The notes below the pieces were generated by a model, which worked only from the letters and a program-made list of their open reading frames with translations, was not told where the DNA came from and did not search any database. This document shows, piece by piece, positions 24,335 to 40,180 of a stretch of DNA of 64,000 nucleotides (its first letter is position 1; each line of letters starts with the position of its first letter). Position numbers and translations under genes: made by a program. Source of the DNA: Hyphomicrobiales bacterium (GTDB lineage Bacteria; Pseudomonadota; Alphaproteobacteria; Rhizobiales; JACESI01); NCBI GenBank assembly GCA_039973685.1, contig JBDWKL010000054.1, positions 1-64,000 on the forward strand, written 5' to 3'.

Positions 24335-24388
24335 ATGACCAGAATTCTAGTCGTGGTGATGAAGCACAGTGCCGGAGACGCAATTTAA
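24335..24388 (+). CDS. ilvI leader peptide (attenuator), 17 residues
   Basis: Short frame MTRILVVVMKHSAGDAI, preceded by TTTAGGTAGAGATA as ribosome binding site. Residues 4-8 are Ile-Leu-Val-Val-Val, the three amino acids made by the pathway that follows, and an Ile codon precedes the stop. Hairpins and a terminator follow directly before the acetolactate synthase gene. This is the arrangement of classical transcription attenuation: scarce charged Ile/Leu/Val tRNA would stall the ribosome at these codons and prevent the terminator. Confidence 0.82.
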   Translation: MTRILVVVMKHSAGDAI

Positions 24389-24410
24389 GCGTCTCGGATA
24401 GGTACTGTGC
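24364..24410 (+). promoter_or_regulatory. ilvI attenuator, upstream (1:2) hairpin
   Basis: GCACAGTGCC (24364-24373) pairs with GGTACTGTGC (24401-24410), and inside it GAGACGC (24375-24381) pairs with GCGTCTC (24389-24395). The left arms overlap the end of the leader peptide, so a translating ribosome would control folding. Confidence 0.7.
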
Positions 24411-24418
24411 GGCAAATA

Positions 24419-24441
24419 GGCTCCCAAAGGGGGCCTTTTTT
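24419..24441 (+). terminator. ilvI attenuator terminator
   Basis: GGCTCCC (24419-24425) pairs with GGGGGCC (24429-24435, one G-U) and is followed by six T. It lies about 90 bp before the ilvI start and would end transcription when branched-chain amino acids are plentiful. Confidence 0.78.
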
Positions 24442-24529
24442 ATTGCCGTTTTATCATAAGCTAGAGGGTTGGAATTTTTGTTCAACAACGCTAGGAAACG
24501 TGCTTAAGCTAGGGCCGATGGAGAAGATT

Positions 24530-34824: not shown

Positions 34825-35562
34825 ATGTCTGAAATCTCTCAAAATACTGAAGAAGAGCGTAGAGCCGCACCGCGCGCGCGCGCGTTAAAGAAGGGCACTA
34901 TTGCCTTTAAAGAACGCTATTGTTCTGCAGAATGCATGGTCAGAAATGAATCTGAAAGCGGTGCATTGTTAATGGTTTCACAAAACCAAGTTATTCCGAA
35001 TGTTTTTGAATTAAAAGTTTATCCTGAACGCGATTTTCGTATCGTGGAAGCTATTTGGCGCACGCCAGATGCGATGGGTGTTCGCTATGCCGGTCAGGTT
35101 CCAGCTGCACCTGTTGCTGCGCCCGCCGCGCCTGTTGTTGCGCCCGCCGCGCCTGTTGTTGCGCCCGCCGCGCCTGTTGCTGCGCCCGCCGCACCTGTTG
35201 CTGCGCCCGCCGCACCTGTTGCTGCACCCGCTGCGCCTGTTGCTGCACCCGCTGCGCCTGTTGCTGCGCCCGCCGCACCTGTTGCTGCACCCGCCGCGCC
35301 TGTTGCTGCACCCGCCGCACCTGTTGCTGCACCCGCTGCGCCTGTTGTTGCACCCGATGTACCTGTTGTTGCACCCGATGCACCTGTTGCTGCACCTGTT
35401 GCTGCACCAATCACACCTAGCGTACCAGTTGATGCGTCTAGCGTGCCTGTTGCTGCACCAGCCGCACCAAGTGCGCCAGCTGCTGCACCGAACCCACATT
35501 CTACATGGGATGGAACTGAGCGCCGGAAGCAAAATCGTCGTCAAACCGACCGTCGCAGTTAA
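34825..35562 (+). CDS. PilZ-domain protein with long Ala-Pro-Val repeat tail
   Basis: 245 residues in three parts. Residues 10-92 look like a PilZ domain, which binds cyclic di-GMP: RRAAPRARALKKG at the front matches the RxxxR motif and ESGALLMV the (D/N)xSxxG region in weakened form. Residues 95-195 are about 14 copies of a 7-residue unit APAAPVA, probably a stiff extended spacer. The last 16 residues (GTERRKQNRRQTDRRS) are strongly basic. No signal peptide is present. Ligand binding should be tested because the second motif is imperfect. Confidence 0.75.
   Translation: MSEISQNTEEERRAAPRARALKKGTIAFKERYCSAECMVRNESESGALLMVSQNQVIPNVFELKVYPERDFRIVEAIWRTPDAMGVRYAGQVPAAPVAAPAAPVVAPAAPVVAPAAPVAAPAAPVAAPAAPVAAPAAPVAAPAAPVAAPAAPVAAPAAPVAAPAAPVAAPAAPVVAPDVPVVAPDAPVAAPVAAPITPSVPVDASSVPVAAPAAPSAPAAAPNPHSTWDGTERRKQNRRQTDRRS
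34871..34884. repeat. (CG)7 dinucleotide tract near the PilZ gene start
   Basis: Fourteen bases of alternating CG lie in codons 16-20 of the PilZ gene (encoding the RAR part). Loss or gain of one CG unit by slippage would shift the frame and stop the protein early. Confidence 0.7.
35110..35403 (+). repeat. 21-bp tandem repeat (about 14 copies) encoding APAAPVA
   Basis: Units of about 21 bp, with CCTGTTGYTGC at the core, recur at exact 21-bp spacing from 35110 to about 35400. Variation is mainly at third positions (GCG/GCA, GCC/GCT) and Val/Ala swaps (GTT/GCT). The repeats are in frame throughout, so copy number changes keep the protein open. Confidence 0.9.
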
Positions 35563-38114: not shown

Positions 38115-38371
38115 TGTCTTTTCCTTCTGTCGTTTTGACTTTTACATGCGCCGTTTTTTGCGGCGTGGGCAGAACAAACGCTGTGCATGTGGCGGACAAA
38201 GGGCTGGAATGTGTCGCTGGTTTGGCAATTGGAAGGATTGCGATCTCTTTTGATTAACGGGGATTTTTTGCGTGAACTTTATCAGAAATGCGGCTTGATT
38301 AACGAATTCGTTGTCTTTTGAGATTCTACTGGTTATAGAATTAACGAAGAGACGTTTATGGGGACTGGCCT
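38115..38371. other. intergenic region before the leuA leader
   Basis: Divergent region between the small exported protein and the leuA leader. It should hold both promoters. No RNA gene or repeat recognised. Confidence 0.4.
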
Positions 38372-38482
38372 GTGGCTTGTTTAAACCAAAGATTTGAACT
38401 GTTGGATGGTGCGCAATTTGTGCAGCCAAACACGTCCGCGCGTACTCTGCTCCTTCAAAGCCTCCTCCTTAGACGCCCCTGA
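38372..38482 (+). CDS. probable leuA leader peptide, leucine-rich
   Basis: An ORF of 36 codons from GTG 38372 (GGGGA at 38360-38364 as binding site) ends TLLLQSLLLRRP, with six leucine codons (CTG CTC CTT ... CTC CTC CTT) within nine, just before the stop at 38480-38482. Starts at TTG 38402 or GTG 38420 are alternatives. The cluster of codons for the end product of the following gene is what a leucine attenuator needs. Confidence 0.62.
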   Translation: MACLNQRFELLDGAQFVQPNTSARTLLLQSLLLRRP

Positions 38483-38522
38483 GCGTCGGCAGTCGGTTAT
38501 GGACCGGACGGACTTTCAGGGG
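38472..38522 (+). promoter_or_regulatory. alternative stem-loops after the leuA leader ORF
   Basis: GACGC/GCGTC (38472-38487) forms a small hairpin over the leader stop. CCCCTGA (38476-38482) can instead pair with TCAGGGG (38516-38522). The two folds exclude each other, as in attenuators, but no T-run follows, so the switch might act on translation or Rho rather than on an intrinsic terminator. Confidence 0.5.
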
Positions 38523-38629
38523 ATGTTAAAGACAGGGCGCTTGGCGAGTGTGATACCGCCTCCCTTGAAAACCAAGCCAACATATTCAAATCGCCCAACA
38601 GATGAGGCGTACCGTATAGGACTGATACG

Positions 38630-40180
38630 ATGACAAATAATAACGATAGCGACCGTGTAGTAATCTTTGACACGACTTTGCGTGATGGCGAACAATCACC
38701 GGGCGCAACCATGACCTTGGAAGAAAAACTTCAGGTGGCTGAAGTGCTCGACACGATGGGTGTCGATATTATTGAAGCAGGTTTCCCGATTGCTTCTGAT
38801 GGTGATTTTGAAGCCGTCTCTAAAATTGCTGAACGGGCTGAAAATTCAATTATTGCAGGTCTTGCCCGAGCTATTCCCGGTGACATTTTGCGCTGTGGTG
38901 ACGCGGTTAAAAACGCCAAGCGTGGCCGTATCCACACATTCGTTTCTACTTCGCCTATTCACCTGCAATATCAAATGAACAAGAACGAAGAAGAGGTCTT
39001 GGAAATCATCACTGAGACTGTGACCCTTGCTCGTTCATTGTGTGAGGATGTTGAATGGTCTGCGATGGATGCAACGCGCACGAGCTTGGAATATCTCTCG
39101 CGAACGGTTGAAGCGGCGATTAAGGCTGGGGCGACCACGATCAATTTGCCTGATACGGTCGGCTTTGCGACACCTGAAGATTATCGCATCATGTTTAAAA
39201 CCATCCGCGAAAATGTGCCGAACTCTGACAAGGCTGTTTTTTCTACCCATTGCCATAATGATTTGGGCCTTGCGGTTGCAAACTCTTTGGCAGGGCTTGA
39301 TGGCGGTGCGCGTCAGATAGAATGCACCATCAATGGCCTTGGAGAGCGTGCTGGCAATGCAGCCCTTGAAGAAGTGGTGATGGCATTGAAAACACGCAAC
39401 GACATGTTGCCGTATCATACAGAAATTGAAGCCACGCATTTGATGAAAGCATCGAAATTGGTGTCCGTCGTGTCGGGTTTCCCTGTTCAATACAACAAAG
39501 CGATTGTTGGTAAGAATGCCTTTGCGCATGAGAGCGGTATTCACCAAGACGGCATGTTAAAGAATGCAGGCACCTATGAAATCATGACGCCTGAATCTGT
39601 GGGTGTGAAAGCAACGTCCTTGGTTATGGGCAAACACTCAGGCCGCCATGCGTTTAAAGAGAAGCTTTCTGATCTTGGTTATGAATTGGGCGACAACGCG
39701 TTTTTGGATGCCTTCAAGCGCTTTAAAGATTTGGCAGACCGCAAGAAGAATGTTTACGACGAAGATATTGAAGCATTGGTCGAAAACGAAGTCGCAACAG
39801 CAAGTGACGCCAACAAAGTGGAAGCTCTTACCGTTATTTGTGGCACCGGTGGCCCGCAAAAAGCGATCATCACGCTTGATTTAGATGGTCGCCACGTGAC
39901 GATGGAAGCGCAGGGCGATGGTCCTGTTGATGCGACATTCAATGCGATTAAGTCGATCATTCCGCACAGTGCAACGCTTCAGCTTTATCAAGTTCATGCG
40001 GTAACAGAGGGAACAGACGCACAAGCCGAAGTATCTGTTCGTCTTGAAGATGAAGGACACCAAGTTACAGGCCGTGCAGCAGATACGGACACGTTGGTGG
40101 CGTCCGCAAAAGCTTACTTGTCAGCACTTAATCGTTTAACAGTTAAAAAGGCACGGCCTGAGGCATTGAAAGCTAGCTAA
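38630..40180 (+). CDS. leuA: 2-isopropylmalate synthase
   Basis: First step specific to leucine: condenses acetyl-CoA with 2-oxoisovalerate. 516 residues. The catalytic domain begins with FDTTLRDGEQSPGATM and has STHCHNDLGLAVANSLAG (metal histidines) and NGLGERAGNAALEEVVMAL. The C-terminal regulatory domain for leucine feedback follows (about residues 390-510). AGGA at 38618-38621 precedes ATG 38630. Preceded by the leucine-rich leader and followed by a terminator. Confidence 0.97.
   Translation: MTNNNDSDRVVIFDTTLRDGEQSPGATMTLEEKLQVAEVLDTMGVDIIEAGFPIASDGDFEAVSKIAERAENSIIAGLARAIPGDILRCGDAVKNAKRGRIHTFVSTSPIHLQYQMNKNEEEVLEIITETVTLARSLCEDVEWSAMDATRTSLEYLSRTVEAAIKAGATTINLPDTVGFATPEDYRIMFKTIRENVPNSDKAVFSTHCHNDLGLAVANSLAGLDGGARQIECTINGLGERAGNAALEEVVMALKTRNDMLPYHTEIEATHLMKASKLVSVVSGFPVQYNKAIVGKNAFAHESGIHQDGMLKNAGTYEIMTPESVGVKATSLVMGKHSGRHAFKEKLSDLGYELGDNAFLDAFKRFKDLADRKKNVYDEDIEALVENEVATASDANKVEALTVICGTGGPQKAIITLDLDGRHVTMEAQGDGPVDATFNAIKSIIPHSATLQLYQVHAVTEGTDAQAEVSVRLEDEGHQVTGRAADTDTLVASAKAYLSALNRLTVKKARPEALKAS

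Follow-up and report, generated by a model that had tools for sequence, protein, structure and literature searches.

Classical leader-peptide transcription attenuators are known from the trp and leu genes of enterobacteria, and in the translational attenuation of erm and cat genes, stalling of a ribosome within the leader makes the ribosome site of the following gene accessible. The gene leuA encodes the committed step of leucine synthesis. In the actinobacterial LEU element, compared here through its published description and not through actinobacterial sequences, a stem formed by a run of Leu codons and the leuA Shine-Dalgarno (SD) sequence encloses a pseudoknot (Seliverstov et al. 2005, PMC1262725). 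In the part of that paper considered here, its authors thought attenuation by the codon run unlikely and favoured a protein (PMC1262725). According to the sections of PMC8079986 that deal with it, leuL1 of Streptomyces lividans encodes the leader MRFGLLLLSCRGEGL, ending at its stop codon, before leuA and without a typical terminator. No account of an alphaproteobacterial leuA leader was found in the open-access literature searched, although Vitreschak et al. 2004 and Lopatovskaya et al. 2010 may mention one. In the portions considered, papers on Caulobacter (PMC4117421) and Sinorhizobium (PMC10117765) describe leader peptides; the word leuA is absent from the main text of both.

Here, a leader of leuA was analysed in the window, that is, the whole stretch of 64,000 nucleotides of DNA under study. 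The features of the locus are as follows.

38372-38482, + strand: leucine-rich leader ORF with a putative GTG start and a TGA stop (38480-38482), its frame and Leu run conserved
38447-38470, + strand: Leu codon run, six Leu in eight codons
38459-38468, + strand: segment A, the part of the Leu run (AGCCTCCTCC) for which pairing with 38600-38609 is proposed
38468-38470, + strand: last Leu codon, CTT, its first base 8 nt from the first base of hairpin P1
38472-38487, + strand: small stem of the earlier note, present in the window and not conserved as a structure
38476-38522, + strand: hairpin P1, from covariation and folding, its 5' arm containing the stop codon of the leader and no T-run following it
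38514-38570, + strand: alternative helix of 38514-38523 with 38561-38570, predicted with a stalled ribosome blocking 38443-38480
38600-38609, + strand: segment D, AGATGAGGCG, candidate pairing partner of the Leu codons, located 21-30 nt upstream of the leuA ATG
38618-38621, + strand: leuA SD core, AGGA
38630-40180, + strand: leuA, 2-isopropylmalate synthase

Read directly from GTG 38372, the leader peptide is MACLNQRFELLDGAQFVQPNTSARTLLLQSLLLRRP, with the C-terminal end RTLLLQSLLLRRP before the stop; its start codon is uncertain, the in-frame TTG 38402 and GTG 38420 being alternatives to the GTG 38372 chosen in the earlier note. That note counted six Leu codons in nine shortly before the stop. 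The six are there (CTG CTC CTT at 38447-38455 and CTC CTC CTT at 38462-38470), and by direct reading they occupy eight codons, not nine. At least six Leu in eight codons with a stop at most four codons further on is found at this site only on both strands of the 64 kb, and the same search of 20 shuffles gave a mean of 0. Two other frames were noted in the window: a 79-codon frame at 38394-38633, different from that of the leader, has no stop within P1 and overlaps the start of leuA, and an ORF with a long AAPVAAPAAPV tandem repeat lies at 34825-35562. An ORF that would extend from P1 as far as the start of leuA, with an ATGA overlap, was considered across loci and rejected as too weak, being open in 59/101 versus 45.5 ± 5.4 in shuffles.

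Homologous leuA loci were collected from 30 genomes, one of them the window's own, and from 80 named contigs that include Pseudovibrio, Stappia, Pannonibacter, Microvirga, Bosea, Methylobacterium, Devosia, Afipia, and Caulobacter. A candidate hairpin was present in 105 of the 109 distinct loci and, one of these being spurious, leader and P1 together stand at leuA in 104/109. The proposal of a leucine leader for this gene is supported. In the remaining four loci, leuA directly follows another gene, ilvC by sequence. (Rows L001, which is the window, and L034, which is L007, were dropped; L022, L024, L041, and L049 have no leader, and L110 has a false hairpin.) Covariance model R1 matched at least 326 of 397 genomes of the order and at least 105 of 385 of the class, both counts being lower bounds because both searches used strict filters. 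The far set was drawn from 69 loci read among these 105 class genomes, the others being the window's own and 35 unread; all 69 encode LeuA (62 by motif, 7 by tblastn), and L145 and L152, with a misplaced hairpin, and L123 and L163, duplicates of near-set loci, were left out of the set. For a new set, 104 of 108 loci were parsed, and 76 were kept after removing those at least 80% identical to loci of the previous sets. Judging from these searches, leader and P1 are not peculiar to the window's genome and appear to precede leuA in many alphaproteobacteria. Rfam 15 gave no family match in the window at gathering score, the best match at E ≤10 being an irrelevant one of 13.6 bits, and an Rfam search of 14 homologous loci returned tRNA only.

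The earlier note would have given up the leader if its Leu run proved unconserved. In the main set, whose loci were selected by a score that rewarded Leu codons (for the far set, CTTA as well), the last Leu codon encodes Leu in 159/159 loci and is CTT in 154/159, and the open frame is kept in 159/159. At this position (-8 from P1), CTT occurs in 97.4% of 235 loci versus 5.3% of the Leu codons in leuA, and alphaproteobacterial leaders often end in LLLLSCP and the stop. The base at -5 from P1, after the last Leu codon, is A in 155/159 loci though the residue varies (Arg, Ser, Ile, Thr). A second leader type, Leu-Arg-Leu (CTN CGA CTT), was also observed (L138, L139, L146, L150, L156, L166, L167, L171, L173, L176, L181, and others). 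The element ahead of leuA is very probably a leucine-sensing leader.

Hairpin P1 is formed by 38476-38483 with 38515-38522 (8 bp), 38485-38487 with 38511-38513 (3 bp), and a top stem of 38493-38498 with 38502-38507. Its base in the window is CCCCTGAG/TTCAGGGG, and its 3' end (38522) lies 107 nt upstream of leuA (38630), the median P1-leuA spacer among the loci being 70 nt. In alignment A1, comprising 99 of the 104 sequences (L099, L100, L105, L109, and L111 were left out), 95.6% of the cells are paired and double changes occur in 11 of the 15 pairs; covariation reaches 0.357 versus at most 0.107 when the structure is slid, and was as high in 0/500 shuffles. The base is near-invariant, with CCCC in 155/159 and GGGG in 156/159 loci, and a rare compensated form, CCTC/GAGG, is found. 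P1 covaries strongly and is a real RNA structure. An asymmetric internal loop of P1 is conserved as well, mostly G[GAT]CN opposite G (columns 34-37 and 63 of the order-level alignment A1).

Both stems named in the earlier note exist in the window, GACGC/GCGTC (38472-38476/38483-38487) and CCCCTGA/TCAGGGG (38476-38482/38516-38522), the latter being the base of the longer P1. The switch proposed between them does not hold across genomes: P1 covaries, whereas the small stem is 52.9% paired with a covariation of 0.088, within the 0.053-0.148 of slid controls. A mutually exclusive antiterminator common to the relatives was not found, the small stem lacking covariation and the P1 3' arm not being co-adapted with downstream sequence. 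Instead, the competing partner of the Leu codons appears to lie near the leuA start. A conserved second hairpin before leuA was also rejected: GCGCC...GGCGC is seen in some loci, yet the spacers fold like their shuffles (mean z -0.12). In the window, an inverted match, GATTTGAA.TGTTGG (38391-38405) with CCAACA..TTCAAATC (38577-38592), encloses the whole leader with a predicted pair probability of about 0.97, and 38391-38592 folds with z -3.0 versus plain shuffles.

In many loci the sequence of the Leu run is CTC CTT A, similar to the 16S anti-Shine-Dalgarno sequence. Since a run of this kind can pair with every SD, the spacer of each locus was tested against spacers of similar G+C from other genomes. 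Pairing of the Leu run (-17 to -5 from P1) with its own spacer was compared with GC- and length-matched spacers of other genomes, L027, L097, and L099 being left out; several intervals and segments had been tried before the test was settled, and an independent set was drawn afterwards. The Leu run pairs better with its own spacer than with matched ones (-10.17 versus -8.74 kcal/mol, z -7.2), as against z -1.7 to +0.6 for five other segments of the leader used as controls (upstream, P1 arms, P1 middle) and z +2.4 for the Leu run with the leuA coding start. Restricting the test to the 121 leaders that have Leu at -11 placed the signal at ATG-30..-5 (z -5.25), with none in the first 30 nt after P1 (0.0) or in the coding region. 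Once relatives had been collapsed to 50 clusters, z was -5.1 for the whole spacer, -4.25 for the SD region, and -0.66 for the rest. The independent non-redundant set (n=75) weakly repeats this, in the same direction and with a smaller effect: z was -2.78 (P 0.002) for the whole spacer, -1.60 (P 0.056, borderline on its own) for the SD region, -0.04 for the rest, and -0.8 to +0.8 for other segments.

Leaders of the Leu-Arg-Leu type add to this picture. Where the middle codon is Arg (CGA), the partner near leuA would have altered too, and the spacers of these leaders carry matching altered complements, such as TCGAAGC versus GCTTCGA, AGTCGAAGGA versus TCCTTCGACT in L150, and AAGTCGT versus ACGACTT in L171. 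Often their complements lie directly downstream of P1, not at the SD. The idea that pairing is always at the SD core was discarded, as many Leu-Arg-Leu partners sit 20-45 nt before the ATG. Overlap of the best partner with the SD core was hardly more frequent in own pairs (0.47) than in mismatched ones (0.44). A synonymous-codon control ran contrary to pairing (random codons -12.67 versus real -12.37), with a possible confounder in that the synonymous draw favours G+C-rich Leu codons. The CTT preference at -8 could equally reflect a rare tRNA as sensor. By folding only, the predicted unpaired fraction of the SD over all loci rises from 0.379 in the free RNA to 0.489 with a stall mask, being higher in 68/101. 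Taken across the class, the comparison of own with matched spacers indicates co-adaptation between the Leu codons and the sequence at, or immediately ahead of, the leuA SD, which is a new observation.

In the window itself, the predicted pairing of segments A and D is modest, at -10.7 kcal/mol, and ranks at 0.03 when set against 30 GC-matched spacers. The window leader, in its minimum-energy fold, pairs the Leu run with 38529-38550, just after P1, and not with 38600-38609; the stall mask does not raise predicted SD exposure there (0.44 to 0.33), and in three other genomes of the genus no pairing of the Leu run near the SD was found (ranks 0.61, 0.84, and 0.79). For the mechanism set out below, support comes from the class as a whole and is weak for the window's own genome.

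When leucine is plentiful, the ribosome would complete the leader and depart, P1 would form, and the freed Leu run would pair with RNA at or just before the leuA SD, leading to poor translation of leuA. When leucyl-tRNA is short, a ribosome stalled on the Leu codons would block this pairing and leave the leuA ribosome site open. P1 would then act as a clamp between the two pairing partners, not as a terminator. The chances seem to us evenly balanced that the leader regulates leuA in this way, by ribosome position and at translation initiation through the Leu run, i.e., by translational attenuation. The broader reading, of a class-wide attenuator in which the Leu codons are the switch strand, mask the leuA site in cis, and are unmasked only by the ribosome that reads them, is put forward tentatively, at somewhat under an even chance.

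Two routes had been offered in the earlier note for a leader devoid of a T-run, Rho and the freeing of the leuA ribosome site, and it is the latter that has comparative evidence, in that the Leu run and the region of the leuA start are co-adapted. In Rho-dependent attenuation, departure of the leader ribosome would leave the P1-leuA spacer free to recruit Rho, and a stall or a rearranged P1 would prevent it. The missing T-run agrees with such a route, as do spacers that are not unusually folded (mean z -0.12), contain 34% C versus 27% G, and are A/C-rich with little T about 6-24 nt after P1; the C excess is mild, however, the spacers are short, and the co-adaptation is left unexplained. We consider Rho-dependent control unlikely.

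Classical transcription attenuation would have P1 itself serve as an intrinsic terminator needing no T-run, with the stalled ribosome lying over its 5' arm. The near-invariant G-C base of P1 fits, and so does the fixed spacing of the last Leu codon, from which a stalled ribosome would reach into the P1 5' arm. The sequence directly after P1 in the window, however, is ATGTTAAAG, not a T-run, and a terminator scan of 38200-38700 found none. At least five T in eight nucleotides follow P1 in only 8/101 loci and in 1/76 new loci, as against a G-C hairpin with a T-run in 21 of 22 testable relatives for the ilvI leader, used as a control (30 loci given, 8 of them without the anchor motif). The contrast with ilvI drawn in the earlier note is confirmed. 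At 24335-24447, the window's own ilvI leader (MTRILVVVMKHSAGDAI and its stop) is among those with the T-run; a G-C hairpin and then the T-run come after it, and it is an ordinary attenuator. A terminator scan over the whole leuA leader was positive in 26/101 loci versus 8.8 in shuffles, the positives among the examples listed being mostly T-rich Leu codons or bases inside P1. From its sequence context P1 is probably not an intrinsic terminator, and classical attenuation at leuA is improbable.

Least probable, and in our view very doubtful, is a three-way rearrangement in which the P1 3' arm, freed by stalling, pairs downstream (in the window, 38514-38523 with 38561-38570): with the stall mask applied, this helix has a predicted mean probability of 0.95 in the window, but 40/500 shuffled spacers pair as well there, the helix is not common to the genus, and co-adaptation of the P1 3' arm with the spacer is absent across genomes (z +0.57; independent set -0.29). 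Such pairing as a general third conformer was rejected, being at about chance over all loci; an earlier, unmatched test had given P 0.0145.

Should the Leu run mask the ribosome site, the preferred reading of translational attenuation would imply a compact arrangement, one set of bases serving both as sensing codons and as masking strand, and this is testable in model alphaproteobacteria. A leader found before leuA in at least 326/397 genomes of the order is yet without an Rfam model, and searches that require a terminator would miss it.

The leuA leader resembles classical attenuators (ilvI of the window; trp and leu) in having a short ORF with codons for the end product, a hairpin, and a biosynthetic gene downstream; it differs from them in lacking a T-run terminator and in that its covarying hairpin overlaps the leader stop codon. 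With erm and cat, the proposed mechanism would share a stalled leader ribosome that exposes the downstream ribosome site, although at leuA an uncharged tRNA would provide the signal, and masking would fall to the sensor codons themselves. As far as the relevant sections of PMC8079986 describe it, leuL1 of Streptomyces lividans is likewise a leucine leader before leuA with no typical terminator, and its peptide is comparable to the LLLLSCP ending common among alphaproteobacterial leaders, but it belongs to another phylum, is leaderless, and has a longer tail past the Leu run. By analogy, the nearest described system appears to be the actinobacterial LEU element. In the part of its description considered here (PMC1262725), it too has a Leu codon run before leuA without an intrinsic terminator, and its base stem, in which the Leu run pairs with the leuA SD, would be matched by the pairing proposed for alphaproteobacteria. 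The same description places a pseudoknot within that stem, where alphaproteobacteria have a simple covarying hairpin containing the leader stop codon (PMC1262725). If the class-wide attenuator is real, the alphaproteobacterial element would either be related to the actinobacterial LEU element or have arisen by convergence.
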